Source: Arthrobacter sp. NicSoilB8 (GTDB lineage: Bacteria > Actinomycetota > Actinomycetes > Actinomycetales > Micrococcaceae). Taken from it: a stretch of DNA of 64,000 nucleotides. Position 1 is the first letter of the stretch. Each line of letters opens with the position of its first letter. The translations under genes were made by a program, and so were the position numbers. Under the pieces are notes generated by a model. That model was not told the DNA's origin and did not search any database. It was given only the letters and a program-made list of their open reading frames with translations. The stretch is from positions 2,046,001-2,110,000 of the forward strand of contig NZ_AP024655.1 of the NCBI RefSeq assembly GCF_019977355.1, read 5' to 3'. Positions 2,523 through 22,715 of the stretch are shown piece after piece.

Positions 2523-2571
2523 TTGAGGTCCTTGGAGGGGTGGGCGCGTCTGTTACTGGACGCGCTCGAGG

Positions 2572-3663: not shown

Positions 3664-3781
3664 TGGTCTCCCACGTCCTTATGTTGATGCTGATTCTACG
3701 TTCGGGTAATGGCTGCGTGCGTTTTATTCGTCCCAGAGGCCCGATGGCGATCCCCGGGGGGTCTCGCCGGGTCTGAGCGGG

Positions 3782-5149: not shown

Positions 5150-5173
5150 AGGTTCTTCCCTTTGTGTTGTTTC

Positions 5174-6211: not shown

Positions 6212-7098
6212 CAGGTGTCCGTTCCGGGCCGCCAGATGGTTGCCACGGCGAAGAATGCGACGCCGAGCATCGCGAGCAGGTAGATGGTGCCCATGGCGCT
6301 GGCCAGGCCTGGATCGCCGAATCGGATCATGGTCCGGTAGATCAGCAGGCTCATGGTCTCCGAGGCGGAGTCGGGGCCGCCGTTGGTCTGGATGAGGATC
6401 GTGTCGAAGGCCCGGGCGGCATCGATGCCGCGGACCACCAGGGCGACAGCGATCACTGGCCGCATTAGGGGAAGGATGATGCGGAACAGCAGCGCCGGAG
6501 CCCGGGCCCCGTCCAACCGTGCTGCCTCAATGAGGTCTCCGGGGATGTTCTGGAGCCCGGCGAAGAGCACCAGGCACATGAACGAGGTTGTAAGCCAGAT
6601 ATCCGGAACGGCCACGGAAAACAGCACGATGTCCGGGTTGGAGAGCCAGCCGATCTGGTTCGGGTTCTCCAGGATGCCGGCCTGGTGCAGGAGGGTGCCG
6701 ATCAGACCGAAGTTGTCGATCATGAGGAACTTCCAGAGCAGGCCGGCCACGATCGGGGCGATCATCAGCGGGTACAGGAACACTGTCCGCCAAATCTGTG
6801 ACCGTTTGCCCAGCATGGTGAACAGCAGGGCCATGCCGAGCCCCAGGGTGAATTCGAGGGTGACGACGATGGTGGTGTAGGCGAGGGTCCGCCATCCGGC
6901 GCCGGTGAAGGCTTCGGAGCTGAAAGCTTCAATGTAGTTGGTCAGGCCAATGAATTCGCGGGTGCCGCCGACATTGGGGGAAATTTTGTAGAAGCTGTCG
7001 GTGATGAGCCGGATGAGCGGGTAGGCCACAAACACCGCGAGGAAAACGGCGGCAGGGGTCATCAGGAACAGCGCGAAACGGCGATCAGGGATACGCAC
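6211..7098 (-). CDS. ABC sugar transporter permease (MalF/CUT1 type)
   Basis: Membrane permease partner of the preceding entry, with six predicted transmembrane segments and an EAA loop (IEAARLDGARAPALLF). I chose the GTG at 7098 (protein starting MRIPDRRFALFL) because an AGAAGAG ribosome-binding sequence lies about 8 bases upstream. An in-frame GTG at 7137 would add 13 residues, but it lies inside a strong hairpin and has no Shine-Dalgarno. With the later start the hairpin is wholly intergenic between the binding-protein gene and this one. Together with the second permease it forms the channel for the fructose disaccharide. Confidence 0.9.
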   Translation of the reverse strand: MRIPDRRFALFLMTPAAVFLAVFVAYPLIRLITDSFYKISPNVGGTREFIGLTNYIEAFSSEAFTGAGWRTLAYTTIVVTLEFTLGLGMALLFTMLGKRSQIWRTVFLYPLMIAPIVAGLLWKFLMIDNFGLIGTLLHQAGILENPNQIGWLSNPDIVLFSVAVPDIWLTTSFMCLVLFAGLQNIPGDLIEAARLDGARAPALLFRIILPLMRPVIAVALVVRGIDAARAFDTILIQTNGGPDSASETMSLLIYRTMIRFGDPGLASAMGTIYLLAMLGVAFFAVATIWRPGTDT

Positions 7099-7122
7099 GG
7101 GAATCTCTTCTGTTTGGTGGAT

Positions 7123-7164
7123 CTTCGCGGCCGGCACCGCTGATTGCGGGTGCCGGCCGCGAAG
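7123..7164 (-). promoter_or_regulatory. Intergenic 16-bp hairpin between binding-protein and permease genes
   Basis: Perfect inverted repeat with 16-bp GC-rich arms (7123-7138 and 7149-7164) and a 10-base loop. There is no T-run, so it is not a classic terminator. Stems in this position, just after a solute-binding-protein gene, often protect the upstream mRNA segment or cause partial termination, so that the binding protein outnumbers the membrane subunits (established for malE-malF-type operons; inferred here). Confidence 0.7.
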
Positions 7165-7167
7165 GGC

Positions 7168-8445
7168 TTACTTGATCAGGTCCTGGACCTTTTTCTTGGC
7201 TTCGGACAGCAACGCTGTGGTGTCCCCGCCGGCCACGGCCTTCTGCAGGGTCGGCACCAGGACGGTGTCGACGATCTGCTGCCACTTGGTCGTCGCGGGG
7301 CGGGTTGCCGTGGCCGGTGCGTTGAGGGTGGCGATCAGCGGCTTGAAGCTTTCGTAGCCGGGCTGGTCCTGGTACTTTTCGAACGCGGAAATCCTTGAGG
7401 CCAGACCGAGCGAGGACTGGATGCCAAGGTCGTTGTGGTCATATGCGCATTTGATGAACTTTTTGGCGTTCTCGGCGTTCTTGCTTGCCTTCGGAACGGA
7501 CAGGTACCAGGGGCCCGGGACGCCGGCCACGCCGGCGGAGCCGCCGATCATGGCCGCGGTTCCGACCTTGCCGTAGACGGGAGAGTCTTTGGGGATCTGC
7601 CGGTAGGCGTGGGCCCAGAAGCGGGTCATGGCGGTCTTGCCCTGGTTGAAGAGGTTCTGGGCGGCGGCCCAGTCCACCTGTGCGGCGCCCGGGGGAGCGG
7701 ACTTGGTCATGCTGACGTAGAAGTCGAGGGCTTCCTTGTGGGCCGCGTTGTCGATCACGACGTTGTTGTTCGCATCGAGGACCATGGGTGAGCCCGCCTG
7801 CAGCACATGGGCCAGCCATTCCGTTTCCACAGCGCCCTTGACATCTGTGCCGTACATCCCGTCCTTGGTGAAGAACTCCGAAATGTCCTGGTACTGCTTC
7901 CAGGTCGTGGGGGCAGCGAGGTCATATCCGTACTTGGTCTTGAAGTCGGCCTTGTTCTGGGCGTTCTCGAAGAGGTCCTTGCGGTAGAGGATGATCTCGG
8001 CGTTGGTCCATGCCGGCATCCCGATGAAATGTCCGTCCACGTTGGCTTCCTTCACCAGCGAGGGAAAGATGTCCTTCTTGACATCGTCAGTGAAGAGCTC
8101 GTCGAGCGGCTGGACGGCGTCCTTGAAGTTGGGCAACCACACCGAGTCAAGGGCCGCGACATCAAAGGAGACGCTGCCGGAGGAAAACTCACTGGAGAGC
8201 CGGTTGAAGAGACCGTCGTAGGGCAGCTCGACAAAGTTGGCGCTGACCCCGGTTTCCTGCTTGCACTTCTCGGCCACCGCGGTCAGTTCGGCGTGGCCGC
8301 CGGCCTCCACGAGGACGTTGATGGAGCCGGCGGCCCCGCCGGACGCGGCCGGGCCGCCAGCTCCGCACGCGGTGGCGGCCAGCAGTACCGCGGCGGAGAC
8401 GCTGCCGACCACGGCGAGCCTGGAGATTGTTTTTCGAGAGGACAT
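7168..8445 (-). CDS. ABC sugar transporter substrate-binding lipoprotein
   Basis: Family 1 extracellular solute-binding protein of 425 residues, first gene of the fructan operon. I chose the ATG at 8445 because an AAAGGGAG ribosome-binding site lies 8-10 bases upstream and the product then begins with a normal lipoprotein signal (MSSRKTISRL, hydrophobic core, lipobox LAATAC). The longer in-frame start at 8610 would run through the promoter and operators. After the lipid-modified Cys comes a flexible Gly/Ala/Ser linker and a two-lobed binding domain rich in aromatic residues. It should capture the disaccharide outside the membrane and deliver it to the two permeases downstream. Confidence 0.93.
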   Translation of the reverse strand: MSSRKTISRLAVVGSVSAAVLLAATACGAGGPAASGGAAGSINVLVEAGGHAELTAVAEKCKQETGVSANFVELPYDGLFNRLSSEFSSGSVSFDVAALDSVWLPNFKDAVQPLDELFTDDVKKDIFPSLVKEANVDGHFIGMPAWTNAEIILYRKDLFENAQNKADFKTKYGYDLAAPTTWKQYQDISEFFTKDGMYGTDVKGAVETEWLAHVLQAGSPMVLDANNNVVIDNAAHKEALDFYVSMTKSAPPGAAQVDWAAAQNLFNQGKTAMTRFWAHAYRQIPKDSPVYGKVGTAAMIGGSAGVAGVPGPWYLSVPKASKNAENAKKFIKCAYDHNDLGIQSSLGLASRISAFEKYQDQPGYESFKPLIATLNAPATATRPATTKWQQIVDTVLVPTLQKAVAGGDTTALLSEAKKKVQDLIK

Positions 8446-8499
8446 CGCTGTCGACTCCCTTTCTCTGGGAACGGAGATACGAAAGATTGGATGATCATT

Positions 8500-8528
8500 G
8501 ACAAACCGTTTTGCCAAAACGACTTGGC
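8500..8528. promoter_or_regulatory. Two overlapping LacI-type operators downstream of the operon promoter
   Basis: Two 16-mers centred on CG, 13 bp apart. The first is at 8500-8515 (GACAAACCGTTTTGCC) and the second at 8513-8528 (GCCAAAACGACTTGGC, 5-bp perfect outer arms). They share the half-site GCCAAAACG/CGTTTTGCC and lie just downstream of the -10 box, where a repressor would block initiation. The LacI-family gene in the operon is the obvious candidate ligand (inference). Confidence 0.7.
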
Positions 8529-8531
8529 ACA

Positions 8532-8561
8532 AGATTATGCGCAGACTGCAGAGGGTGTCAA
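8532..8561 (-). promoter_or_regulatory. Promoter of the fructan operon (TTGACA-18-TAATCT)
   Basis: Reading leftwards, a perfect -35 hexamer TTGACA (8561-8556) and a -10 hexamer TAATCT (8537-8532) are separated by 18 bp. The start of the binding-protein gene lies about 87 bp further on. Both flanks carry LacI-type operators, as expected for a repressed catabolic promoter. Confidence 0.75.
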
Positions 8562-8565
8562 GGGT

Positions 8566-8581
8566 CACAAATCGTTTTGGC
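8566..8581. promoter_or_regulatory. Upstream LacI-type operator
   Basis: CACAAATCGTTTTGGC, centred on CG at 8573-8574. It shares CAAAnCGTTTTG with the operator at 8500-8515. It sits immediately upstream of the -35 box, about 53-66 bp from the downstream sites, a spacing that would permit looping. Confidence 0.65.
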
Positions 8582-8621
8582 ATCGGCCTGAGAGGTCGCC
8601 GGCGAAGCACCGTACGCGCTC

Positions 8622-10306: not shown

Positions 10307-11068
10307 CTAGCAAGGCGTGGATTGTGCATGCCTGCTGGTCGCATTCGTGGACTCGTCGCACGAGGGATGCTGCGCTGATGACCAGCGGCGGTTATCCATG
10401 ATCAGTGGCAGAAGGGCCGCAGGGGAGGGAGCAACGGCGGCGGCCTGCGAGGCTTCCTCGGCCTCCCCGTATCCCCAGAGTGCGAATATTGTGGGGATTC
10501 CGTGTTTAGCTGCTCCCGCGACGTCGTAGCTTCGGTCTCCGACCATTGCGGGACTGGAGACGTCTACGCCTGTGGAATGGAGCCGAAGCAGCAATTCGGC
10601 GATGACGTCTGCCTTGCTCGCTCTTCCCTCGGTATCTGATGCTCCGCATACATTGATGAAGTGGCAATCAATTCCGAACATTCGTGCCAGTCTTATTGCT
10701 TGATCTTCAACCTTGGACGTGGCTACGGCCATCGGAACGCCGGCCGAATGTAGGCGTTCCAGTAGATCGATGATTCCGTCGTATGGGCTGGACTGTTCGG
10801 CGCCGTGCTCGGCGTATGCGTTGCGGTAGTGTTGGAGGGCCTTTTGGGCGGTTTTTTCGTCCAGTTGTGAGACGGTTCTGAAGGACTCGATCATCGGTGG
10901 TCCGACGAATCTGCGCAGTGTGTCCATCGATGGGACCGGTGCGCCTACAGCGGCCAAGGCCTGGGCAGCGCTTGCTGTAACGCCTGGTGCTGAGTCCAAA
11001 AGCGTTCCGTCCATGTCGAACAGGATGCAGCTTATGCCAGTGGACGGGGTTTGGTGCAGGTGTGTCAT
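10307..11068 (-). CDS. HAD-superfamily phosphatase (phosphoglycolate phosphatase-like)
   Basis: A 253-residue HAD hydrolase. Motif I is FDMDGTLLDS near residues 18-27, with the nucleophile and acid/base aspartates. A helical cap follows (about 30-90), motif II is AVATSK, and motif IV is MVGDRSYDV. It resembles Gph/PpaX-type phosphatases that remove phosphate from small metabolites. The last 30 residues (after LLPLIMDN) look unlike the family and abut a recombinase remnant, so the C-terminus may have been replaced by rearrangement. It is divergent from the Lrp regulator, with 78 bp between. The substrate cannot be told from sequence. Confidence 0.85.
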   Translation of the reverse strand: MTHLHQTPSTGISCILFDMDGTLLDSAPGVTASAAQALAAVGAPVPSMDTLRRFVGPPMIESFRTVSQLDEKTAQKALQHYRNAYAEHGAEQSSPYDGIIDLLERLHSAGVPMAVATSKVEDQAIRLARMFGIDCHFINVCGASDTEGRASKADVIAELLLRLHSTGVDVSSPAMVGDRSYDVAGAAKHGIPTIFALWGYGEAEEASQAAAVAPSPAALLPLIMDNRRWSSAQHPSCDESTNATSRHAQSTPC

Positions 11069-11146: not shown

Positions 11147-11614
11147 ATGGATCGAGTGAGTCTTGATCAGATAGATCAGAGGATTCTTGCGGAGCTCACG
11201 AAGAACGCCCGCATGAGCCACGCAGAACTGGCGACCAAAGTCCTCCTGTCGCGGAATGCTGTGCGCCAGCGGATCGAACGGATGGAGCGGCAGGGGTATA
11301 TCCAGGGGTACACGATTGTTGCCGGCCCACCGGGCCAGGGCCCGGTGTCCGCTTTCCTGATGGTTTACCGGAAGGACCGGGTGCGGGGGGCTGACGTCAT
11401 CTCCGTTTTACGGTCTATTCCCGAAGTGGTTCTGTGCGACGTCGTGAGCGGTGACTATGACCTCCTGGTGAGGGTCGAGGCCCGGTCGCTGGAGAGGGTT
11501 CAGGAGATCTGGGAGCAGATCGCGGCCATTCCCGGAGTCACGGACACGGTCACGGCCATGACGCTGTCCAGTTACATCAGGCGGGGCGCCAGTGGTGCCC
11601 GGGCCACGGAGTGA
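11147..11614 (+). CDS. Lrp/AsnC-family transcriptional regulator
   Basis: A 155-residue feast/famine regulator. It has an N-terminal winged helix-turn-helix (LDQIDQRILAELTKNARMS through LSRNAVRQRIERMERQGYI, about 5-50) followed by an alpha-beta RAM ligand-binding domain (about 70-145) of the type that senses amino acids. It is convergent with the aspartase gene (5 bp between stops) and divergent from the HAD gene. Its neighbours are all amino-acid catabolic genes, so it probably responds to an amino acid of that pathway (inference). No specific operator could be identified. Confidence 0.92.
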   Translation: MDRVSLDQIDQRILAELTKNARMSHAELATKVLLSRNAVRQRIERMERQGYIQGYTIVAGPPGQGPVSAFLMVYRKDRVRGADVISVLRSIPEVVLCDVVSGDYDLLVRVEARSLERVQEIWEQIAAIPGVTDTVTAMTLSSYIRRGASGARATE

Positions 11615-11619
11615 AGTGA

Positions 11620-13029
11620 TCAGACCCCGCATGTGTCCGTACTCCTGACTGGCAGCACGGCGGATTCAAGCAGCGACTGGGCAGCCTCCCGGCCCAAGAG
11701 CTTCCTTCTGGTGACGACGTTCAGAATGGTTGACCCGTCCTGAAGGGCTTCCTTTGCCACCGCTGCTGCTGCGGCATACCCGATGGCCGGTATTAGGGCC
11801 GTTGCGAGACCCACCGAGACTGACGTCTGGCGGGCGAGGTGTCCGGTGTTCGCTTCGATACCCTCCACGCAGTATCGACGAAGGGCGTGCGATCCGTTTT
11901 CGACCCATGAAATGCTTTGAAGAAGGAAATGGGCAATTACAGGTTCGAAGGCATTGAGTTGGAGTTGCCCATTGTCTGCAGCCATCGTGACTGTTGTGTC
12001 AGCTCCGGCGACTGCGAAGGCGATCTGATTCATGGCCTCCGGGATTACAGGGTTGACCTTTCCCGGCATGATTGATGACCCGGCCTGGCGCGGGGGCAGG
12101 ATAATGTCGCCGAAGCCATTCTGTGGACCGCTCGACAGCAGCCGTAGGTCGCTGCTGATTTTGGACAGCTTTATGGCTGTGCGCTTCAGCATGCCCGACA
12201 AGTGCATGAAAACACCGACGTCGGACGTCGCTTCGATGAGGTCGGCGGCGGGAACGACCGGGACGCCGGAGACCTCGGAGAGCGCCAGAAGCACGCGTTG
12301 CTGATACCCCGGCTCGGCGGTGATACCGGTCCCGATGGCGGTGGCGCCCAGGCTGCACTCGAGCAGCAGCGCTGTGGATTCCATCAGCCTGGAGCGGTCT
12401 TCTTCCAGCGTCGCGGCGAAGGCATTGAACTCCTGCCCAAGGGTCATCGGGACGGCGTCCTGAAGCTGTGTCCTGCCCATCTTCACCACGTCGGCGAATT
12501 CAGCACCTTTGCTGCGGGCGGATTCGGCGAGCTTGCCCAACTCGCGGTGGAGCTCTGCGGTGGCGAAAATCAGTGCCAGTTTGATCGCCGTCGGATAGGT
12601 GTCATTGGTAGATTGGCACCGGTTAACGTGATCAATGGGGTGCAGGTGCTGGTAGTCACCGCGGCGGTGGCCCAGTTTTTCCAGCGCAAGATTCGCGATC
12701 ACCTCGTTGGCATTCATGTTCGTGCTCGTTCCGGCACCGCCCTGAATGACGTCCACACAGAACTGTTCGTGGTGATGTCCGTCCTGGATTTCCTGGCACG
12801 CTTCGCGGATCGCTGTCGCCTCCCGCGGGTCAAGGATGCCCAGTTCGCAGTTGGCCTGCGCCGCAGCGTTCTTGATCATCGCCAGCGCACGCACCAGGTG
12901 CGGGTGGCGGGAGATGGGAATCCCGCTGATGGTGAAGTTTTCCAGAGCCCGGGCGGTGTGCGCTCCCCAGTAGGCTGTGGCCGGTACAGGAACGCTCCCG
13001 AGCGAATCCGTCTCGATGCGGCTGGTCAT
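11620..13029 (-). CDS. aspA: Aspartate ammonia-lyase
   Basis: Deaminates L-aspartate to fumarate and ammonia. The 469-residue protein has the aspartase/fumarase superfamily landmarks: GGAGTSTNMNANEV near 98-110, STNDTYPT near 140-147 and the catalytic serine loop GSSIMPGKVNP at 317-327. Length is normal for AspA. A GAGGA ribosome-binding site precedes the ATG at 13029. The gene is last in a same-strand series after homoserine dehydrogenase and aldehyde dehydrogenase genes, separated from the latter by 103 bp. That order gives a route homoserine, aspartate semialdehyde, aspartate, fumarate (inference). Class II fumarase is the main alternative, but the sequence looks closer to aspartase. Confidence 0.88.
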   Translation of the reverse strand: MTSRIETDSLGSVPVPATAYWGAHTARALENFTISGIPISRHPHLVRALAMIKNAAAQANCELGILDPREATAIREACQEIQDGHHHEQFCVDVIQGGAGTSTNMNANEVIANLALEKLGHRRGDYQHLHPIDHVNRCQSTNDTYPTAIKLALIFATAELHRELGKLAESARSKGAEFADVVKMGRTQLQDAVPMTLGQEFNAFAATLEEDRSRLMESTALLLECSLGATAIGTGITAEPGYQQRVLLALSEVSGVPVVPAADLIEATSDVGVFMHLSGMLKRTAIKLSKISSDLRLLSSGPQNGFGDIILPPRQAGSSIMPGKVNPVIPEAMNQIAFAVAGADTTVTMAADNGQLQLNAFEPVIAHFLLQSISWVENGSHALRRYCVEGIEANTGHLARQTSVSVGLATALIPAIGYAAAAAVAKEALQDGSTILNVVTRRKLLGREAAQSLLESAVLPVRSTDTCGV

Positions 13030-13132
13030 GGTTTTCCATCCTCTATGTGGAAGTGTGGGTGGTGGCGTTGTTGAGTGCCGCTTGCTCGGAGGAACCGGAG
13101 GGCGCAGGGCCCGGTCGCGCCCTCCAGCTCGA

Positions 13133-14545
13133 TCAGTTCTTGATGCAAATGACCTTTGGCTGCGTCATCTCCTCATACGCGAAATGGACGCCCTCCCGGC
13201 CCATGCTCCCGTACTTGGCCCCACCGAACGGCATGCCGTCGAACCGGTAGTCAGAGGAATCGTTAATCATGACGCCGCCTGCTTCGAGCTTGCGGGCCGC
13301 ATCCATGGCCCTGGCCAGGGAGTCGGTGAATATGCCCGCATGGAGACTGAACTCGATGGCGTTGGCGACGTCGATGGCCTCTTCGAAAGTGGTGAATTTA
13401 TGAAGCATCACCACCGGCCCGAAAACCTCCTCCTTCCACAGCCTGCTGTCCGCCGGGACGGCTTCCAGGACGGTCGGCTGAAGCACATTGCCGTCCTTGA
13501 CATTGCCTGAGAGCAGGACAGCGCCGGCACCGAGGGCCCCGTCCAGCTTCGTCTGGAGCTCCTGCATGGCGGCGGGGCTGATCATGGGCCCGACATCCGT
13601 CCGTTCATCCGATGGATCTCCGGCAACCAACCGCGCCGTTTCCTCCAGGAAGCGCTGGCGGAACGCGCTGTATACCGGGGCGGCTACGAGGATCCGCTGC
13701 ACTCCCACGCAGTTCTGTCCGGCGGCCCAAAACGCTCCGGAGACGCAGGATTCCACCGCGTTCTCGATGTCGGCATCGTCCAGGACGATCACGGGTGCGT
13801 TTCCACCGAGATCCATCGAAAGCTTCTTCAGACCTGCGGTGCGGGCGATACTCTCACCCGTGGAGAACCCCCCGGTGAAGGACACCATTCTTACGTCCCG
13901 GGACCTGATGATTGACTCGGCCACTTCCCGGTCGCCGTGAACAATCGTGAGGGTCTCCGGCGGGAGACCGGAGCTGACGAGGGCGTCCGTGAGCAGCTGG
14001 GCTGACAGCGGAGTCAGGGCCGAGGGTTTGAGGATCACGGCGTTTCCTCCGGCGATGGCCGGGCCGATCTTGTGAGCCACCAGGTTGAGGGGGTCGTTGA
14101 ACGGAGTGATCGCGGCAATGATGCCCAAGGGTTCGCGGGAGTACCACCCGGTCCGGTCCTCTGAGCCCTCGTACGAGTCAAAGGGGATGACTTCGCCTGC
14201 GTTTCGGCGCGCTTCGGCAGCGGAGAGGCGGAGCGTGTTGACCGCCCGCAGTACTTCCTTCCGGGCCTGGCGGATCGTTTTCCCGGCCTCAGACACAATG
14301 GTTTGCGCGAACTCCTCGTGGCGCTGCTCGATCTCTGTTGCGGCGCCGTCGAGTATCTTCCCGCGGGCATTGCGGGACAGCGCCCGTGCTTTCCGGGCGC
14401 CGATGCGGGCTGTTTCAATCACGGCTTCGCCGGCGGTGGCTTCGGTCAGCGAAACCGCGCCGACCACCCTGCCGTCGTAGGGGCTCCTGACGTCTCGGAA
14501 CTGCGGCAGCACGGTTTCCGTCGAATACAGTGTGGACTCAAGCAT
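13133..14545 (-). CDS. NAD(P)-dependent aldehyde dehydrogenase, possible aspartate-semialdehyde oxidase
   Basis: A 470-residue ALDH-superfamily enzyme. It has the Rossmann region ([17 protein letters not shown], near 147-163), SFTGG near 222-226, and catalytic Cys279 in [11 protein letters not shown]. The usual general-base glutamate of the LELGG box is aspartate here (MDLGGN, D245). The TPFNDPLN segment places it with the GapN/phosphonoacetaldehyde dehydrogenase-like branch acting on small charged aldehydes. Its start overlaps the end of the homoserine dehydrogenase gene by 8 bp, so the two are coupled. Aspartate 4-semialdehyde is the natural substrate by context (inference). Confidence 0.85.
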
Positions 14546-15590
14546 TTGCAGCTGCTCCCGTCCGGACGGCGTGCATGGCGATGATGTCGGAGAGCAGGGC
14601 GTATGCGGTTTCCACGCGGCCGGCTCCCGGTCCTGAGACAGTTACTGCCCCCAGAAGGTCGGTGTCGAAGGACACGGCATTGGTTGCGCCTGAAATGCCG
14701 GCCAGCCCGTGGTCGAGGGGGAGTGCTACGGGGGATACGCCTGCTGTCACTGACCCGTCCAGGTTCCGCCTTGCAGAACCGACGAGCTTCCATCGGCGGC
14801 CCTCGCGGGCTGCCTTCCGGATATTCTCCGGCGTCACAGCTGAAATCCCCTGCCGCTGAACGTCCTGGAGTTCCATGCCTGCGTCAAGCAGTTCGTTGGC
14901 GAGGATGAGGACCTTGAGCTGAACGTCGTAGCCCTCAATGTCTGCTGAGGGGTTTGCCTCGGCATAGCCGAGTTCCTGCGCCTCGCTGATGGCCGCTTCA
15001 AAGTCCAGTCCGGCTTCCATCCGCCCGAGCACATAGTTGCTGGTGCCGTTGAGAATGCCTTCGAAACCCTTCAACTTCAGCCCCGCGAACATCTTCTTGG
15101 CCAGGCGAATGACGGGAGTGCCGCTCATAACGGCACCCTCGAACTCGAAGTGCACGCCGTTCTGTTCGGCCAGGGAGGTCAGCTCAGCGCCACGGAGGGC
15201 AACGGGGCCTTTGTTCGTGGTGCAGACGCTCTTGCCGGATTCGAGCGCCCATCGCACGTGCGAGACTGCCGGCTCGCCGTCGTCGGGATTCGTGAACGTG
15301 GCCTCGCAGATGATGTCAGCGGTGCAGTTGCGGATAACGGATTCGTTATTGGTGTCCGCGGATCCGCCGTATTCGGCGAAGGTTTCGCCGCCACCACCCA
15401 GATTGAGGGGGATGGAAAGGTCGATGCCCTCAGCCTGGACCAGGGAGCCGAGGCGCAGGTCGGTGATGGCCACGACCCGCAGGCCGAAGCCCAGCTCGGT
15501 ATGAAGTGTCTCGCCGCGTGTTGCGATCAGTTCGGCCAGTGTCCGGTTGACGCCGCCGAAGCCGATCAGCGCAATGTCGTAGGTGGTCAT
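14538..15590 (-). CDS. Homoserine dehydrogenase, short form without ACT domain (probably catabolic)
   Basis: Interconverts L-homoserine and aspartate 4-semialdehyde. Features in the 350-residue protein are an N-terminal Rossmann motif ([10 protein letters not shown]), the conserved lysine in [10 protein letters not shown], and the signature [19 protein letters not shown]. The biosynthetic actinobacterial enzyme normally carries a C-terminal ACT feedback domain, which this one lacks. An AAGGAGCACC ribosome-binding site lies directly before the ATG. It is the first gene of a unit continuing into the aldehyde dehydrogenase and aspartase and is divergent from an amino-acid permease. That context argues for homoserine oxidation rather than synthesis. 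Confidence 0.88.
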
Positions 15591-15890
15591 GGTGCTCCTT
15601 CAATCAGTTACATCGGTCTTCCAATGCTCACCGCATTCCATGTCCGTCAGGGCATGTGATTGTGACCGAAAAACAGGGCGAAGTGACCATGTGCCTGCCG
15701 ATTCGACATCGACGCCCCGATGTAACCCAGTGCAACATAGGCATGGTGAAATGTTTTTAATGACCAGAAGCTAGTTTTCGTGTTACTTTCATCACTACCG
15801 CCATTGCACAGTTCGAGGCGGCCCGTCCTGCCCACCGGGACGATATGCGCACCTTTCGCATCAGACCTGTCCACTCACCTGGGAGAAACC
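15591..15890. promoter_or_regulatory. Divergent intergenic region between homoserine dehydrogenase and permease genes
   Basis: 300 bp expected to hold the two divergent promoters and the IclR/Lrp control sites. It is noticeably less GC-rich than its surroundings around 15740-15800. I see no convincing palindrome or unambiguous -35/-10 pair, so no operator is named. Confidence 0.35.
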
Positions 15891-17330
15891 ATGGAACCGT
15901 CAACACCTGTCCAGCTGGAACCACAGCCCATAATTCCCCCGTCGACCGATTCCGGGCTCCGGCGGTCTATGGGGGCACGGCATCTGGTCATGATCGCCAT
16001 GGGTGGGGTGATCGGTTCCGGGCTGTTCCTTAGCTCGGGCTACACCATTTCCCAAGCCGGGCCACTCGGGGCCGTCGTCGCTTATCTCATCGGTGCCTTC
16101 GTTGTGTACCTGGTAATGGCCTGCCTCGGCGAACTTGCCATCGCGTATCCGGTCTCAGGCGCCTTCCACATCTACGCTGCGAGGTCGATCGGGCCGGCCA
16201 CCGGCTTCGTCACGGCCTGGCTCTACTGGCTCTGTTGGGCAGTGGCCATCGGATCGGAGTTCACTGCCTCAGGCCTCCTGATGCAGCGCTGGTTCCCCGG
16301 GGTCGAGGTCTGGGTCTGGTGCGTCATCTTCGCCTCGGTCCTCTTCGGCTTCAACGCCATTTCCTCGAAGTTCTTCGGCGAGTCTGAATTCTGGTTTGCC
16401 ATCGTCAAGGTCGGCGCCATCGTGGTCCTCATCGTTCTCGGCGGCGCGGCGCTCTTCGGAGTTCACCCGCTTAGCGAGGGGGCCAACCACCCGTTCATGC
16501 TGGAGAACTTCAACACATCCGGCGGCCTCTTCCCGAACGGCTTCGCCGGCGTCCTCGTCACTGCTCTGGCCGTCTTCTACGCCTTCTCAGGCTCTGAACT
16601 CATCGGCGTGGCGGCAGGCGAAACAGCTGACCCTGCCACCAGCATCCCGAAAGCGATGCGCAGCACAGTCATCCGCCTGCTGATCTTCTTCGTCGGGGCG
16701 ATCGCCGTCATCGCCGCTACCATCCCGTTCGAGCAGGTCGGACTGGATGAAAGCCCGTTCGTGACGGTCTTCTCATCCATAGGCATTCCTTTTGCCGCCG
16801 ACATCATGAACTTCGTCATCATCACCGCCCTCCTCTCCGCCGGAAACAGCGGTCTCTTCTCCTGCGCACGGATGCTTTACTCCCTTGCCGACGAGGGGCA
16901 CGCGCCGCGGGCGCTAAAGAAACTGACCCGACGCGGGATCCCCATGATCGCGTTGTCAGTAAGCATGCTCGGAGGCCTGGCATCTCTCATCAGCAGCGTC
17001 GTCGCACCTGAAACGGTCTACCTGGCGCTCGTTTCGGTGGCAGGATTCGCCGTCGTCGGGGTCTGGATGTCTATCACCGCCTCGCACTTTTTCCACAGGA
17101 GGTCCTTCGTCAGGAAGGGCGGCGATGTTGCTGCCCTTCCGTACAAAGCGCCGCTGTTCCCGCTGGTGCCGATCCTGGCCTTCTCGCTCTGCCTTATTTC
17201 GCTCATCGGCATCGCCTACGACCCGAACCAGGTCGCAGCCCTCTATTTTGGAGTCTCTTTTGTTGGCGCCTGCTATGCCTACTTCTATTTCAAGTACGGA
17301 CGCAAGGCGCGCGAAAGCCAGTTGTCCTAA
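15891..17330 (+). CDS. APC-family amino-acid permease (MmuP/AAT-like)
   Basis: A 479-residue secondary transporter with about 12 membrane segments. The first helix has the APC signature GGVIGSGLFLSSGYT. Segments such as LGELAIAYPVSGAF and ISSKFFGESEFWFAIVK closely resemble the S-methylmethionine permease MmuP/YkfD of E. coli. The ATG at 15891 was chosen because GGGAG lies 5 bases upstream; a longer frame from 15780 lacks a ribosome-binding site. It probably imports the amino acid degraded by the divergent dehydrogenase genes, with homoserine or S-methylmethionine as candidates (inference). Confidence 0.9.
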   Translation: MEPSTPVQLEPQPIIPPSTDSGLRRSMGARHLVMIAMGGVIGSGLFLSSGYTISQAGPLGAVVAYLIGAFVVYLVMACLGELAIAYPVSGAFHIYAARSIGPATGFVTAWLYWLCWAVAIGSEFTASGLLMQRWFPGVEVWVWCVIFASVLFGFNAISSKFFGESEFWFAIVKVGAIVVLIVLGGAALFGVHPLSEGANHPFMLENFNTSGGLFPNGFAGVLVTALAVFYAFSGSELIGVAAGETADPATSIPKAMRSTVIRLLIFFVGAIAVIAATIPFEQVGLDESPFVTVFSSIGIPFAADIMNFVIITALLSAGNSGLFSCARMLYSLADEGHAPRALKKLTRRGIPMIALSVSMLGGLASLISSVVAPETVYLALVSVAGFAVVGVWMSITASHFFHRRSFVRKGGDVAALPYKAPLFPLVPILAFSLCLISLIGIAYDPNQVAALYFGVSFVGACYAYFYFKYGRKARESQLS

Positions 17331-17357
17331 GGCCGTCATCAACTACCGCCTACTCAG

Positions 17358-17392
17358 CTTCACGGCCGGGACTTTCGTTCCCGGCCGTGAAG
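17358..17392 (+). terminator. Strong hairpin between permease and racemase genes
   Basis: A 14-bp perfect stem (CTTCACGGCCGGGA, 17358-17371, with its complement 17379-17392) and a 7-base loop. No T-run follows. It lies 27 bp after the permease stop and 19 bp before the racemase start, so it may attenuate read-through or stabilise the permease message. Confidence 0.6.
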
Positions 17393-17411
17393 CAGTCCAA
17401 CGGATATAGCC

Positions 17412-18560
17412 ATGAGTTCACAAGACCTGATGCAACAAATGAGCAGTTCGGCCCAGGACGCCGGCAGCTGGCTGGAGATTGACGCCGCCGCTTTCGAGTC
17501 AAACGTCCGGAATCTCCTGTCCATGATCGATGGTCGGTCTCTCCTGTGTGCCGTGGTTAAGTCCCAGGCTTACGGACATGAAGCTGACCTCTTTCTCCCT
17601 TCCCTTGTTCGTCTCGGCGTCCCCTTCGTGGGAGTGGGAAGTAACGAAGAGGCGGCCATCGCACGCCGCTGCGGTTTTGAGGGCCGGATCCTGCGTGTCC
17701 GTGCCGCGGCGCCGCAGGAGATCAAGGCCGGCCTGCGTCACGACATCGAAGAGCTCGCTGCCGACCCGCAGAGCGCATGGGAGATGCACACGATCGCTGC
17801 CGAGGCCGGGAAAGTGGTGCGAATCCACCTCGATATCAACTCTTCCGGGATCGGCAGGCACAGCCTCGACGTCTCATCCGTACTTGGGCGGGCGTCCGCG
17901 GTAGCGATCGTGAGCCACCCGGGACTTCGACTGGCCGGGATCATGACGCACTTTCCCAAGGACGACAACAGTCACATCGAAACGGCTCTTGTGCGTTTTG
18001 AAAGCCAGGCGTTGGCGCTGCTCCAACTGACAGGAGTTCCCCGGGAGGAGGTGCCTATTCACTGCGCCAATTCGTACGCCGCGCTGAACATGCGCGGCTC
18101 GTGGCTGGACATGGTTCGTGCTGGGGCATTCCTCTACGGCGATTCAGAGCCTGCATCGGGGCAGTTCCGGCGGTGCGTGGCCTTCACAGCCCGAATCGCG
18201 TCTATTAACAGCTACGCAGCAGGAACGAAGGTCGGCTACGGGCTAGCCCACACCCTGGACCGCGACTCCAGGCTGGCGTCAGTGACAGCAGGGTACGGGG
18301 ACGGCTACCGGGGTGCGTTGGCCAGCCAGGGCGGCGTACTTGTCCGTGGCCGTCGCGCTGCCATTGTCGATGTTGGTTCGATGAATTCGATGGTTATCGA
18401 CGTCACCGATATAGCGAACGTCTCCCCGGGAGACGAAGTCGTGCTGTTCGGCCGGCAGGGAAGCGCCGAAATCGCTCCGGCAGAACTCGATGCAGCGAAT
18501 TTCAGCAATCCTCGCGGACCTCTACACTGTGTGGGCGCAAGGAAACCGCGTCCTCGTTAA
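17412..18560 (+). CDS. Alanine racemase-like PLP amino-acid racemase
   Basis: Fold-type III PLP enzyme of 382 residues that should interconvert D- and L-amino acids. The PLP lysine is K50 in CAVVKSQAYGHE (canonical AVVKADAYGHG). The second catalytic base is Tyr276 in KVGYGLAHT, and the C-terminal beta domain contains VDVGSMNSMVID, close to the family DMCMDQ region. The active-site strand departs from canonical Alr (SQAYGHE), which suggests a broader-specificity or specialised racemase. Lying after an amino-acid permease and before an IclR regulator, it may feed a D-amino acid such as D-homoserine into the catabolic genes (inference). Confidence 0.82.
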   Translation: MSSQDLMQQMSSSAQDAGSWLEIDAAAFESNVRNLLSMIDGRSLLCAVVKSQAYGHEADLFLPSLVRLGVPFVGVGSNEEAAIARRCGFEGRILRVRAAAPQEIKAGLRHDIEELAADPQSAWEMHTIAAEAGKVVRIHLDINSSGIGRHSLDVSSVLGRASAVAIVSHPGLRLAGIMTHFPKDDNSHIETALVRFESQALALLQLTGVPREEVPIHCANSYAALNMRGSWLDMVRAGAFLYGDSEPASGQFRRCVAFTARIASINSYAAGTKVGYGLAHTLDRDSRLASVTAGYGDGYRGALASQGGVLVRGRRAAIVDVGSMNSMVIDVTDIANVSPGDEVVLFGRQGSAEIAPAELDAANFSNPRGPLHCVGARKPRPR

Positions 18561-18613
18561 CAATGAGGACATGTGAGAATAGGCGTAGTTATCGGGCGGA
18601 AGGAGCACGGATC

Positions 18614-19414
18614 ATGGATTCTTCCTCGGAAGCGTCGTCCATGGCCCAAGGACTTCGAATAGTCCGGCTGGTCGCAGACCGGGAGAAGTGGGGCAGGCGG
18701 CTTCTCGGCGTTTCCCAGCTCGCATCCGAGCTGGATATGGAACAAAGCCGTGTCTCCCGGCTGACGCAGGAATTATGCGACCTGGGACTGCTGGAACGTG
18801 TCGAACGAGGACCTTTCCGAACCGGCCCACGTTTTTTCAGTCTGGCCGCAGCGCTGAATGCCGGATGGGTCCACGAATCAAGAGCTGAGCTTGAGGCTTT
18901 GGTGGCTTCGTTCGGCCTCAGGGCCAGAGTTTCCGTCCGCGAGGGCTACCGCGTCATTCTCCTGCGTGCCTCCAGTAACGACGCGGTACCCGGAAGCTTC
19001 GTGAAACCCGGCATGGTGACGCCCGTATGGTGTACCGGGTCCGGCCGGGCCCTGCTGTGGGACGACCAGCAGCCTGCCGTTCAAGCCCTCCTCCAGGACG
19101 TCAACTTCATCGGCGTAGGCGGCCCGGGAGCGGCCCATTCGCCACAAGAGGTCGCCGAACTGATGGACCGGGACCGGGCGCGGGGCTTCATCGTCGCGGA
19201 GGAAGAATTCGAGCATGGAGTCTACGAACTGGCCGTTCCCGTCCGCAGCGTTGAAGGATCCATTCTTGCTGCGCTGAGCGTCCTGGGCAGCCGGGCCGAG
19301 ATCACATCCAGCACCGATGACATTGCCGAGGCCCTCACGGCCGCAGCCGAACGGCTGGGGTCCTGCGAGGGCGGCAGCCGGGGCGACTCCGGCCGTAAGG
19401 GCCTTGCCAGCTAG
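18614..19414 (+). CDS. IclR-family transcriptional regulator (first of two)
   Basis: A 266-residue IclR-type regulator with a winged helix-turn-helix around residues 10-65 (LGVSQLASELDMEQSRVSRLTQELCDLGLL) and a C-terminal effector-binding domain with the late motif VYELAVPVRSVEGSILAALSV. The ATG at 18614 is preceded by AAGGAG at a normal distance. It follows the racemase gene by 53 bp on the same strand and is probably part of that unit. Its stop overlaps the stop of an opposing paralogue by 4 bp. The two paralogues share an unusual start, MxxxSxxxSMxxG, so they may be an old duplication. Confidence 0.85.
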   Translation: MDSSSEASSMAQGLRIVRLVADREKWGRRLLGVSQLASELDMEQSRVSRLTQELCDLGLLERVERGPFRTGPRFFSLAAALNAGWVHESRAELEALVASFGLRARVSVREGYRVILLRASSNDAVPGSFVKPGMVTPVWCTGSGRALLWDDQQPAVQALLQDVNFIGVGGPGAAHSPQEVAELMDRDRARGFIVAEEEFEHGVYELAVPVRSVEGSILAALSVLGSRAEITSSTDDIAEALTAAAERLGSCEGGSRGDSGRKGLAS

Positions 19415-20187
19415 AGCCCGTTCGGTGCCGACGTGTGGCCCAACGCCGATTCAAGCCACTTTCCCCAGGACAGGAGAGCCGTGGCGCAGACTTCCCGCCG
19501 CGGCCCCAGGCGGGTCTTGGTGCCTACAACCTGAAGCGCTGCGACCACGTCGCCCTTAAAGTCCCGAATCGGAACGGCCAGGGAATACAGTCCGGGCTCG
19601 GCTTCCTCATCGACAATGGAGTACCCCCGTGCCCGCGCCCCGCGCAGACGCGACAGGAAGTCCTCGACGTCGAGCGCGGTGTTGGGACCATGACGCACGA
19701 AGTCAACGCCGGAAAAAACGGTTCGGACCTCGGCATCCGACGCTTCCCACATCAGGGCCTGACCGGCGTCACTGCAGTAGGCCGGGTAGGGCCGGCCCAG
19801 CCAGGACCCGACCATGTTGCTGCTTGCCGGAACACGCTCGCCGATGGTGACAGTACTGTTTCCGCTCAGAATTCCAAGGAAGCATCCTTCATCAGTTTCA
19901 CCGGCCAAGCCTTCCAGTGCGGTCACGCCGTCGCTCTGCAGCCGCTGCTCTGTCAACAGCTGCGCGTCTGTCAGGAGTGACCAGTTCAGGGTGTAGGACC
20001 GATGTTCGCCGCGGGCCAAAAACCCCTCCTGCTCGGCGGTCCGGAGGCTGCGCGAAACCTGGCTGCGGTCTTTGCCCAGATCGGCGGCTATGTCAGCGAC
20101 CGTTCCGCCAGGAAGCCCTCCTGGCTTGCAGGAGCCCACCGCTAAGACAGCCATGATTCCCCGGCCCATGCTGGACGTCTTAGACAT
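19411..20187 (-). CDS. IclR-family transcriptional regulator (second of two)
   Basis: IclR-type regulator of 258 residues with a winged helix (TVADIAADLGKDRSQVSRSLRTAEQEGFL) and an effector domain ending LYSLAVPIRDFKGDVVAALQVVG. It is clearly paralogous to the convergent regulator. The start at 20187 (MSKTSSMGRG) was chosen by alignment with that paralogue; an ATG at 20214 is also in frame, and neither has a strong ribosome-binding site. It lies just downstream of the cyclase-family gene on the same strand and probably controls that operon (inference). Confidence 0.85.
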   Translation of the reverse strand: MSKTSSMGRGIMAVLAVGSCKPGGLPGGTVADIAADLGKDRSQVSRSLRTAEQEGFLARGEHRSYTLNWSLLTDAQLLTEQRLQSDGVTALEGLAGETDEGCFLGILSGNSTVTIGERVPASSNMVGSWLGRPYPAYCSDAGQALMWEASDAEVRTVFSGVDFVRHGPNTALDVEDFLSRLRGARARGYSIVDEEAEPGLYSLAVPIRDFKGDVVAALQVVGTKTRLGPRREVCATALLSWGKWLESALGHTSAPNGL

Positions 20188-20220
20188 GGAACCGATTCTA
20201 GTCACCTGGATCAACGTGTC

Positions 20221-20973
20221 TTAGTGGATGGCGAAGACCCGGGCTGGAAAACCGCTGCCGTGCAGGGGTTTCGGCCAGCTTGCAATGAGGATCGCGCCGG
20301 CTTCTGGAAGTCCGTTCAGGTTCGCCATCAGCTCGATCTGCCACCGGTTGCGCGCCAGAACATAGGTCTCCAAGCTGAAATCCTGGCGGGACGTAGCCAG
20401 CCCCGGGTCTGTGTCTGTCTGCTCGTGGCCGACGGCAGTTACCGACCGCTCCTCGATCAGGAAGGAGAGGACTTCCTGCGACCAGCCAGGCGTGTGGCTG
20501 ACCCCCTTATCGTCCCTGTTCGCCATGGCGTCGGAGTCGGGCCAACGATGGCTCCACCCTGTCCGCAACGCCACAAAGGACCCGGGGGCGATGGGGCCGT
20601 TGCGGCGCTCCCATGCCTGGACGTCCTCCATCGTGGGCGTGGCGTCCGTATTTGCGGTGACCCGCGCGGTGATGTCGAGGATGACCAGTGGAAGGACCAT
20701 ATCCTCCACAGGAATCTGGTCCAAGGTCCGTCCACCGCGGATGAAATGCGAGGGAGGGTCAACGTGCGTACCCCATTGGCCGATGATCGAATAGCGGTGA
20801 GCGGTGAAACCGTCGCCGTTCTCCAGATCGAACACCGCCTCCCTGATTTCGTCGGGGAATGCCGAGAAATGAGGCTGGCCGGGGTGGAAGGCGTGCGTCA
20901 GATCGGTGAACGACCTGCCCGCGAGCAACGCTTGCAGACCGTCCCAAAGTCCGGCAGTGGTGGCTTCAATCAT
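20221..20973 (-). CDS. Cyclase-family metal-dependent hydrolase (kynurenine formamidase-like)
   Basis: A 250-residue member of the cyclase family (PF04199) that includes kynurenine formamidase and isatin hydrolase. The metal-binding signature is QWGTHVDPPSHF, with the conserved His/Asp/His set, followed by DQIPVEDMVLPLVILDI. A later conserved segment is GSFVALRTGW. It should hydrolyse an amide or lactam-type bond. It overlaps the upstream 149-residue gene by 4 bp (ATGA) and is followed after 6 bp by the IclR gene, giving a compact three-gene operon. The substrate is unknown. Confidence 0.85.
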   Translation of the reverse strand: MIEATTAGLWDGLQALLAGRSFTDLTHAFHPGQPHFSAFPDEIREAVFDLENGDGFTAHRYSIIGQWGTHVDPPSHFIRGGRTLDQIPVEDMVLPLVILDITARVTANTDATPTMEDVQAWERRNGPIAPGSFVALRTGWSHRWPDSDAMANRDDKGVSHTPGWSQEVLSFLIEERSVTAVGHEQTDTDPGLATSRQDFSLETYVLARNRWQIELMANLNGLPEAGAILIASWPKPLHGSGFPARVFAIH

Positions 20974-21419
20974 GATGCGGCCTCGCTCTCAAAGACTGCC
21001 GGAAGGGTAGCGCTGGAGACGCTGACTGGGCCTGTCAGTTCGATGACCGGTACCTCCCAGGGATGGATATCCACGATGTGCTGCAAGAAGCGTTCCACGG
21101 CGGCGTCAGGGAGCGCCGCATCGAAATACGTCGTGAAGACAAAGGTAGGTGAAATTGTCCGCTGCCCCACCTGCCCCAACGTAGGGTTAGCGCCTTCACT
21201 GCAGGTGAACCCCTCGAAGCCCAGGCCGGATTCGAATACATGCCTGTAGTTGCCAAAATCCCCTAAGTCGGGGGATTCCGACGAAGCCTGGAGCAGGGCC
21301 GCGATGCCGGCCTCATCTTTGAATGCTTCTGCGTCGCCCCTGGCGAGCCGCGAGAAAGTTTCCGAAGCTATGGGCCAATGCACGCGCAGCTTGCGGACTG
21401 ATTTCATTGCAATTTTCAA
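20970..21419 (-). CDS. Small protein with a CutA/PII-like C-terminal half
   Basis: A 149-residue protein I cannot assign to a characterised family. The C-terminal part, FVFTTYFDAALPDAAVERFLQHIVDIHPWEVPVIEL, resembles the strand-helix-strand end of CutA/Nif3-type PII-like domains (HPxEVPVI). The first 60 residues are charged and helical. No signal peptide, membrane segment or obvious catalytic motif is seen. It is first in the operon with the cyclase-family hydrolase and overlaps it by 4 bp, so the two probably work together. Confidence 0.65.
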   Translation of the reverse strand: MKIAMKSVRKLRVHWPIASETFSRLARGDAEAFKDEAGIAALLQASSESPDLGDFGNYRHVFESGLGFEGFTCSEGANPTLGQVGQRTISPTFVFTTYFDAALPDAAVERFLQHIVDIHPWEVPVIELTGPVSVSSATLPAVFESEAAS

Positions 21420-21743
21420 GGGAAGCCTCTTCCTGGGCAGTTCTCAAAAGGTGTCTGAATGTCATGGTGGCATAGAGTGATGTTCATTACAAGCATGAAT
21501 AAATGCGTATTACGCACAATAGTGGAGGAGGGGTTTGTGTTCACTCGGCACATCCGCCAGACTTTCGGCGTGACTGGGCCGCGGAGCACCGGCTGCTGCA
21601 AGTGTCTGCTGACCGTCATCTGCAACCCCGGGCTGCACTGCGCTTTTTGGCACTGCACGTTGTGCTACTTTGCATTGCCGGGCCATAAGGGCCGCAACTG
21701 CCCGGCAGACAAGAACGAACCGAACCGCTTGGAGCCCTGAACG
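21420..21743. other. Divergent intergenic region upstream of the methyltransferase gene
   Basis: 324 bp between the CutA-like gene (leftward) and the homocysteine methyltransferase gene (rightward). It includes a locally AT-richer stretch around 21460-21535 that is the best place for promoters. I see no gene, RNA or palindrome that stands out. Confidence 0.4.
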
Positions 21744-22715
21744 ATGCCCAGTAACACCACGCTTTCCCGCATGCTCGACGCCGGAGCGAACCTGACCGTG
21801 GACGGTGCACTCGCCACCGAGCTTGAAGCGCTCGGCTGCGACCTGGAAGACCCTTTGTGGTCGGCTAAAGTCCTTCTGGAACAACCGCAACTGGTCAAGC
21901 GCGTACACCACGACTACTTCCGCGCCGGAGCCGCCGTCGCCATTACGGCGAGCTATCAAGCCACACCCCGGGGATTTGCGCGGCGCGGCATCGGCGAGCA
22001 AGAGGCCTTGGAGCGGGTGGCATTGAGTGTGCGCCTGGCCGACGAGGCGCGCCGCGAGTACCTGGCGGAAAACCCTGATGCGGGCCCCCTGCTGGTTGCA
22101 GGATCGGTCGGGCCCTACGGCGCGTACCTTGCCGATGGATCGGAATACCGGGGCGACTATGTCCTCAGCCGAAACGAGTTTTTGGAGTTCCACCGGCCTC
22201 GAATCGCAGCGCTGGTGGAGGCCGGAGCGGACTTTCTTGCCTGTGAGACGCTGCCTTCATTGCCGGAAGCCGAAGCCTTGTTAGCACTCATTAAAGAGTT
22301 CGACGTCGAAGCCTGGCTCTCCTTCACGCTACGGGACGGCGGCCACATCAGCGACGGTACGCCGCTGGCTCAGGCGGCAAAGCTTTTTGCGGCGGAGCCG
22401 CTCGTGGCGGCGATCGGCGTGAACTGCGTGCCGCTGGAGCTGGTCTCCCCATCGCTGGAAGCCCTGGGCAGAGCCACTGATACGCCCCTGATCGCATATC
22501 CGAATTCGGGCGAAAGCTATGACGCAGTCACCAAAACGTGGGGGCCGGCCGCGGCGAGCCCTTCGGGCCCCGATCTCAAACAGCCCGCAAGCCTTGCGGA
22601 GGGGACGCCAATCTGGCGTGAACTTGGTGCCCGGCTCGTTGGCGGGTGCTGTCGAACGACCCCCCAGGATATTGCCGCCGTGACGGCGCTGTCAGAAAAT
22701 CACAAATCTGGATAA
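21744..22715 (+). CDS. mmuM: Homocysteine S-methyltransferase
   Basis: A 323-residue zinc-dependent methyltransferase transferring a methyl group from S-methylmethionine (or SAM) to homocysteine. The three zinc-binding cysteines are visible: C228 in AIGVNCVP and C302/C303 in GGCCRTTPQDI. The N-terminal DGALATELEALG and the central ASYQATPRGF are typical of MmuM. GGAG lies 9 bases before the ATG. In E. coli mmuM pairs with the permease gene mmuP. Here an MmuP-like permease lies 4.4 kb away on the same strand, so the two may share a substrate, S-methylmethionine (inference). Confidence 0.9.
   Translation: MPSNTTLSRMLDAGANLTVDGALATELEALGCDLEDPLWSAKVLLEQPQLVKRVHHDYFRAGAAVAITASYQATPRGFARRGIGEQEALERVALSVRLADEARREYLAENPDAGPLLVAGSVGPYGAYLADGSEYRGDYVLSRNEFLEFHRPRIAALVEAGADFLACETLPSLPEAEALLALIKEFDVEAWLSFTLRDGGHISDGTPLAQAAKLFAAEPLVAAIGVNCVPLELVSPSLEALGRATDTPLIAYPNSGESYDAVTKTWGPAAASPSGPDLKQPASLAEGTPIWRELGARLVGGCCRTTPQDIAAVTALSENHKSG

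Follow-up and report, generated by a model that had tools for sequence, protein, structure and literature searches.

A shared operator may join homoserine oxidation to an S-methylmethionine-type gene module in Arthrobacter sp. NicSoilB8

S-Methylmethionine is a plant sulfur (sulfonium) compound, common in plants, and the gene pair mmuP-mmuM is the S-methylmethionine operon of E. coli. Catabolism of homoserine is known from the pRL8 locus of Rhizobium leguminosarum/johnstonii 3841 (Vanderlinde et al. 2014, as cited in the available text of PMC10228743); in the same text a homoserine dehydrogenase (HSD) of A. nicotinovorans is cited (Liang et al. 2022) as strongly one-way, in the direction of homoserine oxidation, and canavanine degradation via a gamma-lyase has homoserine as an intermediate (Hauth et al. 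2022, as cited in the available text of PMC10018355). Here we describe a gene cluster in a stretch of 64,000 nucleotides from Arthrobacter sp. NicSoilB8 (NZ_AP024655.1, positions 2,046,001 to 2,110,000; hereafter the window), in which an HSD gene module like that of pRL8 stands beside relatives of mmuP and mmuM. We propose, with a probability of about 45%, that the cluster is one regulon of two modules through which the C4 skeleton of an S-methylmethionine-type compound would pass via homoserine to fumarate. The coupled regulon is the new part; homoserine oxidation is already known.

In the proposed scheme, module A (HSD, an aldehyde dehydrogenase or ALDH, aspartase and an Lrp regulator) would oxidize L-homoserine to aspartate semialdehyde and then to aspartate, from which ammonia and fumarate would be released. 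Module B consists of an MmuP-like permease, a racemase, two IclR-type regulators (IclR1 and IclR2), two proteins here called CYC and SML, and an mmuM homologue. Its permease would import the S-methylmethionine-type compound, part of which the mmuM homologue would spend as methyl donor; the C4 skeleton of the remainder would be released as homoserine, most likely by SML and CYC, and an IclR protein, most likely IclR2, would control both modules via a shared palindromic operator. The scheme starts from what the sequences show: which genes are present, how they are conserved and occur together, and the operator that they share. Each enzymatic step is predicted from protein families, and the substrate and the release of homoserine by SML and CYC are put forward as hypotheses.

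The cluster was compared with 80 loci, the best of at least 567 confirmed relatives, fetched with two patterns, one of which was LIGFGGVN; as a best-scoring subset of the relatives, this sample leans toward close kin. The gene content of the fetched loci was determined by our own picking of open reading frames (ORFs), not from annotation. Genomes were sampled from the genus (101), the family (120) and the phylum (296).

The two modules are linked by a bipartite palindrome, TCATTANAANCAT-N6-ATGCNTAT-N3-GCAC, found at 15730-15763 (minus strand) between HSD and the permease gene and at 21484-21517 (plus strand) between SML and the mmuM homologue. At up to three mismatches, these are the only two sites in the 5.17-Mb host genome (the reversed control gave 0). 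Sites with at most five mismatches are present in 34 of 35 HSD/permease regions of the Arthrobacter group (the remaining one has 10) and in all 32 regions upstream of SML, the window being included in both counts, and 1,340 random sequences from a first-order model of the same regions always had at least six mismatches. All nine of the scanned SML loci of Streptomyces, Sinomonas and others have a site with three to five mismatches between SML and IclR2. In the 39 of 80 loci that have no module B of the SML-CYC type (691,103 bases), sites with six mismatches or fewer occur only in L046 (five) and L056 (six), each directly upstream of a gene for a pyridoxal phosphate (PLP) enzyme. No operator was found in the gap between Lrp and the neighbouring HAD hydrolase gene, where all 27 gaps that are long enough have nine or more mismatches. 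On these patterns, common regulation of both modules in this genome through the shared operator is likely.

Module A very likely has the chemistry predicted for it, from homoserine through aspartate semialdehyde and aspartate to fumarate, and is a known kind of system. HSD (14538..15590, minus strand), of the catabolic type, scores 449 bits with family NF004912 (cut-off 373), and its reading frame shares 8 bp with that of ALDH (13133..14545, minus strand; Pfam 462 bits). ALDH falls below the cut-offs of 25 NCBIfam families among the matches listed (25 of 45), so its assignment to the oxidation of aspartate semialdehyde is drawn from context. It adjoins HSD in 77 of the 80 loci, the other three (L051, L071, L074) being near a contig end, and with such pairing the arrangement is not due to chance. 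The Lrp/AsnC regulator (11147..11614, plus strand; family matches) is present in 71 of the 80 loci, and the aspartase (11620..13029, minus strand; NF008909 676 bits, cut-off 510) in 28, of which 25 keep the GSSIMPGKVNP-type motif. The motif GFGGVN, partly a fetching criterion, is found in every HSD of the 80 loci as in that of the window, and the ALDH motif MDLGGN in 70 of 75 motif-bearing loci and in two rhizobial homologues. Lrp is 58-59% identical to two rhizobial homologues. Conservation of HSD, ALDH and Lrp extends across Arthrobacter, Streptomyces and rhizobia, with pRL8 among the rhizobial cases.

An earlier note on positions 11147-18560 of the window had read them as a possible homoserine-to-fumarate catabolic cluster with its own racemase. 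The ORFs that it named, from Lrp to IclR, are all present and correctly placed, including the overlap of HSD with ALDH, and its description of HSD as ACT-less agrees with the Pfam matches, among which there is no ACT domain. The oxidation chain that it proposed gains support from the conservation of HSD, ALDH and Lrp as far as rhizobia and from Rhizobium sp. CB3060, where these genes occur together with aspartase. Its remark that no characterised actinobacterial version was known has to be amended for the enzyme, not for the cluster, in view of the A. nicotinovorans HSD cited in the available text of PMC10228743. The HSD of the window is 87% identical to P0017 of Paenarthrobacter nicotinovorans and 80% identical to that of the P. 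nicotinovorans locus L024; the protein studied by Liang et al. may be one of these or neither. The closest named relatives are Arthrobacter, and a second HSD, of 438 amino acids, is encoded elsewhere in the host genome. Among HSD-ALDH loci with no permease module (within L036-L082; Streptomyces, Lentzea and others), a FAD amino-acid oxidase gene occurs in 16 loci, a DoeB-like deacetylase-family gene in 12, a four-carbon-sugar-kinase gene in 7 and PdxA in 6; these are possible other feeders of aspartate semialdehyde.

The best family for the permease of module B (15780..17330, plus strand) is the S-methylmethionine permease MmuP (NF008484), with 619 bits, a margin of 242 bits over the runner-up (377) and a score under the equivalog cut-off of 716; two Streptomyces orthologues score 608 and 619 bits. 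Its GTG start at 15780 is probably too early, as the in-frame ATG at 15891 fits the relatives. The mmuM homologue (21744..22715, plus strand), an MmuM-type homocysteine S-methyltransferase (NF007020 401 bits, cut-off 215), is found in 20 of the 80 loci. CYC (20221..20973, minus strand) and SML (20970..21419, minus strand) overlap by 4 bp and occur in an identical 38 of the 80 loci, with the permease present every time. IclR1 (18563..19414, plus strand; family matches) occurs in 43 of the 80 loci, and IclR2 (19411..20214, minus strand), the candidate regulator of the operator, lies downstream of CYC and adjoins SML-CYC also in L126 and L127, loci with neither permease nor HSD. The gene order in Arthrobacter is permease-(racemase)-IclR1 and convergent IclR2-CYC-SML, frequently followed by a divergent mmuM homologue. 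The same core genes are found, differently ordered, in six loci of Streptomyces and one of Sinomonas.

In the genus sample, HSD was found in 39 genomes, CYC in 47 and the racemase in 16; CYC is present in all 39 HSD-positive genomes and in 8 of the 62 HSD-negative ones. These 8 genomes have module B alone, with the mmuM homologue adjacent in seven, and in four near-complete genomes (G157, G184, G185, G198) HSD and CYC are both present, more than 2 Mb apart. The family sample has HSD in four genomes and SML at high identity in three of these four, seven other genomes having weak SML matches of partial length (29-37%). In the phylum sample, SML was found in four genomes, always beside CYC, CYC in five and HSD in two.

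The racemase (17412..18560, plus strand), which had been proposed as the cluster's own homoserine racemase, has its closest PDB matches among alanine, broad-specificity and lysine racemases (4bf5, 4dyj, 4dza) and carries AVVKSQAYGH, which fits the PLP lysine motif AVxKxxxYGH kept in 10 of 13 cluster racemases. All 16 genomes that have it also have CYC and HSD. In 15 of them its distance from CYC is about 3 kb or less (the 16th has CYC on a different contig), and HSD is about 2.3-2.5 Mb away in three that are near-complete (G157, G185, G198). Because it stays near CYC even where HSD is distant, the racemase is assigned to module B, and the homoserine-specific role proposed for it is not borne out.

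CYC is a homologue of PF04199 hydrolases (135.8 bits, cut-off 23.1), with isatin hydrolases and a cyclase-family protein as its closest PDB relatives, and is a candidate homoserine-lactone hydrolase; the motif GQWGTHVDPP[SV]HF is present in all 38 CYC loci. Another part of pRL8 carries a cyclase-family gene, presumably the pea-induced gene pRL80036 described in PMC3333776; CYC has no BLAST match to it at 1e-3 and is rejected as its orthologue.

SML, an orphan of 149 amino acids and a candidate sulfonium lyase, has no meaningful Pfam match, and among the matches listed that bear a name it is called just hypothetical or uncharacterized protein. Its profile matches the inserted domain of NIF3 (2gx8, E 0.0038), a GlnB/CutA-like domain, and NIF3-like relatives (96.5% by hhalign), and SML possibly has a fold of the GlnB/CutA/NIF3-insert class. 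The invariant residues are G56, Y58, E63 and E69, and G56, Y58 and E69 (Gly-x-Tyr with Glu 11 residues after Tyr) are kept in 39 of 39 SML proteins, from the 38 loci and the window; the three NIF3-like relatives have Gly at position 69, and none of them has the Gly-x-Tyr/Glu motif. In the S-adenosylmethionine (SAM) lyase Svi3-3, Tyr58 and Glu69 are in the active site, and Glu69 is thought to orient the substrate (available text of PMC7877911). The G-x-Y-x10-E spacing is found in five of seven T3-family proteins, the other two having G-x-F. As a detectable SAM-lyase homologue SML is rejected, since none was found in Pfam, PHROGs, PDB sequences or by hhalign.

SML and CYC may tentatively be viewed as a lyase plus lactonase pair, though the odds are against it. 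The specific version is more speculative still: SML would be a cellular, GlnB-like S-methylmethionine lyase yielding dimethyl sulfide and homoserine lactone, CYC would hydrolyze the lactone, and with HSD, ALDH and aspartase the cluster would turn S-methylmethionine into ammonia, fumarate and dimethyl sulfide, with a single IclR operator in control.

Several observations weigh against the proposed regulon or its parts. The operator pattern was derived from the same two sites with which it was searched, so that zero mismatches there prove nothing, and only uniqueness and conservation count. Five separate HSD loci (L103, L105, L107, L109, L110) have no operator at six mismatches or fewer, so shared control is not universal. 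The co-occurrence of HSD and CYC (Fisher p about 2e-20) is not corrected for descent. The permease is below its equivalog cut-off, and the mmuM homologue is missing in all seven SML-CYC loci of Streptomyces and Sinomonas and in five of the 11 Arthrobacter-group racemase loci (L018, L023, L024, L026, L034); a sixth racemase locus in which it was not seen, L009, is cut by a contig end. In the family sample, one HSD-positive genome (G006) has no SML match, and two SML-positive genomes of the same class (G238, G408) have neither this HSD nor a permease within 20 kb. Loci of Microbacterium and Leifsonia have the permease, the racemase, HSD and both IclR genes, and SML-CYC is missing at the locus. 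In CYC, Gln replaces the first His of the metal motif of its PDB relatives (HTGTHxDxPxH). Profile comparison of SML with seven T3-type SAM lyases gave an hhalign probability of 0.1%, with no profile similarity; given this flatly negative result, the two have no more than a motif in common.

The front end beside module A differs among genomes: amino-acid ABC transporter genes on pRL8, SML-CYC in Arthrobacter and some Streptomyces, and in Rhizobium sp. CB3060, where module A includes an aspartase, a B3/4 protein and a PLP enzyme of the Cys/Met type that together form a canavanine-type front end. The PLP enzyme of the Microbacterium and Leifsonia loci is also of the Cys/Met type and is 61-62% identical to the enzyme of the CB3060 canavanine locus. 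With SML-CYC absent from the locus, the operator-like site before the PLP gene marks another candidate homoserine-releasing enzyme; the strongest hint that homoserine comes from SML-CYC lies in this exchange of front ends, taken together with the operator. The PLP genes of L046 (12936-14218) and L056 (2989-4297) lie beside Lrp, a possible case of actinobacterial canavanine degradation. The exchange for a PLP enzyme fits canavanine equally with S-methylmethionine, a further point against our proposal. S-Methylmethionine, favoured because of the permease family and the mmuM homologue, has about an even chance of being the substrate of the cluster.

The alternative that survives best, itself doubtful, is that the permease imports free L-homoserine to be burned by HSD, ALDH and aspartase, that the racemase salvages D-homoserine and that SML, CYC and the mmuM homologue are accidental neighbours. 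Module A does match the genes at the pRL8 homoserine locus, and the Microbacterium and Leifsonia loci do keep permease, racemase and HSD with no SML-CYC; however, the permease is closest to the S-methylmethionine family, the operator recurs before SML and the mmuM homologue, 8 genomes have module B but not this HSD, and the racemase stays with CYC where HSD is elsewhere. Free homoserine may not be the real food, because a rare control site is shared with S-methylmethionine-type genes. The overall reading of the earlier note stands as to the oxidation chain to fumarate. It is not supported as to the role of the racemase, as to the lack of a characterised actinobacterial version in the case of the enzyme HSD, or as to free homoserine as substrate, since the permease and the mmuM homologue, like the operator, suggest S-methylmethionine instead. 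The limits of the note were also too narrow, as they omit the HAD gene and the mmuM homologue as well as the convergent IclR2, CYC and SML.

Somewhat less likely again is homoserine lactone from acyl-homoserine-lactone turnover as substrate, with CYC opening the lactone, module A burning the homoserine and the racemase handling D-homoserine from racemised lactone. This alternative is favoured because of reported Arthrobacter physiology: according to the available text of PMC5474475, homoserine lactone is a nitrogen source for Arthrobacter VAI-A and the sole carbon and nitrogen source for Arthrobacter HSL-1 to HSL-3, and the pathway of acyl-homoserine-lactone metabolism in Variovorax is called still unknown. 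The nearest PDB relatives of CYC also suit it. It gives the mmuM homologue and SML no role, the Pfam-annotated cluster ORFs include no acylase (no dedicated acylase search was made), and strains VAI-A and HSL-1 to HSL-3 are not linked here to these genomes.

It is improbable that canavanine is what the permease imports and what yields the homoserine, following the pattern of Rhizobium CB3060, with SML-CYC as an alternative to the PLP gamma-lyase. Canavanine is favoured because of the PLP enzyme: module A is present at the CB3060 locus, and a related PLP enzyme is found in Microbacterium, Leifsonia and Saccharopolyspora loci, with the operator-like site upstream in the first two. Yet a PLP enzyme of the gamma-lyase type is found in none of the 34 Arthrobacter-group loci, the Pfam-annotated cluster ORFs include no editing gene of the B3/4 type, and the mmuM homologue is left unexplained. 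Least probable is that a different C4 hydroxy-amino acid is the substrate of HSD and ALDH, with homoserine as a side substrate, for although some Streptomyces and Lentzea HSD-ALDH pairs share 21 kb with a DoeB-like deacetylase-family gene (under its cut-off), a FAD amino-acid oxidase gene, or PdxA and four-carbon-sugar-kinase genes, none of these families was found in the Arthrobacter-group loci, and a related HSD is reported to oxidize homoserine.

The HAD hydrolase gene (10307..11068, minus strand; Pfam HAD_2) occurs in 38 of the 80 loci and adjoins the permease and CYC in Streptomyces and Sinomonas. Because of its phosphatase-type DxDGT motif, kept in 33 of the 38 cluster homologues, azetidine-2-carboxylate hydrolase was rejected as its role. 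No riboswitch or tRNA was found in the window at Rfam gathering scores or by ARAGORN. Just past the mmuM homologue, at 22988-24196, is an IS110-family transposase, and GC content climbs from about 0.60-0.64 to 0.65-0.68 near 28 kb of the window. At 41-8610 there is a fructan-type cluster with a GH32 enzyme, a PfkB kinase, a beta-helix protein with an inulin-fructotransferase repeat domain, and a LacI-like regulator and sugar-ABC-transporter-like ORFs, the regulator and transporter labels having been assigned by eye from sequence.

Among the papers listed, no title or abstract opening gives an account of the cluster; a bacterial S-methylmethionine lyase may already be described, the list in that case comprising 25 of 441 papers. 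If the proposed regulon exists, a single operator would connect a specific input from plants with the oxidation of homoserine by a soil actinobacterium. The cluster names candidate genes for the growth of Arthrobacter on homoserine lactone reported in the available text of PMC5474475, and SML and a PF04199 subgroup with an altered metal motif would gain a first testable role. If the lyase reading is true, these genes would make up a terrestrial route by which S-methylmethionine becomes dimethyl sulfide.

Among described systems, module A is most like the pRL8 locus, where HSD likewise overlaps a same-family ALDH (each 61% identical to its counterpart in the window) with Lrp downstream, and where the HSD-ALDH pair sits close to the cluster cited for homoserine catabolism. 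On pRL8, tblastn reveals a partial aspartase between ALDH and a homoserine kinase; about half of it is detectable (L083 17682-18326), which may reflect an annotation gap or a decayed gene. The amino-acid ABC transporter genes and the homoserine kinase of pRL8 are not among the Pfam/NCBIfam-scanned ORFs of the window cluster, and in the annotated stretch of pRL8 no permease, racemase, IclR or SML is named and CYC has no match. The HSD also resembles the oxidation-directed family of A. nicotinovorans, P. nicotinovorans HSDs being 80-87% identical to it. Canavanine degradation has in common with the proposed scheme the homoserine intermediate and, at the CB3060 locus, module A, but differs in its PLP enzyme, which the 34 Arthrobacter-group loci do not have. 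SML and the phage SAM lyases (Svi3-3, T3) possibly belong to the same fold class, with the same G-x-Y-x10-E spacing; unlike them, SML is a bacterial operon gene with no profile similarity to theirs. Finally, both families of E. coli mmuP-mmuM have members in the window, the mmuM homologue above its cut-off and the permease below its own, and in contrast to E. coli they are accompanied by a racemase, an IclR pair, SML-CYC and homoserine oxidation.

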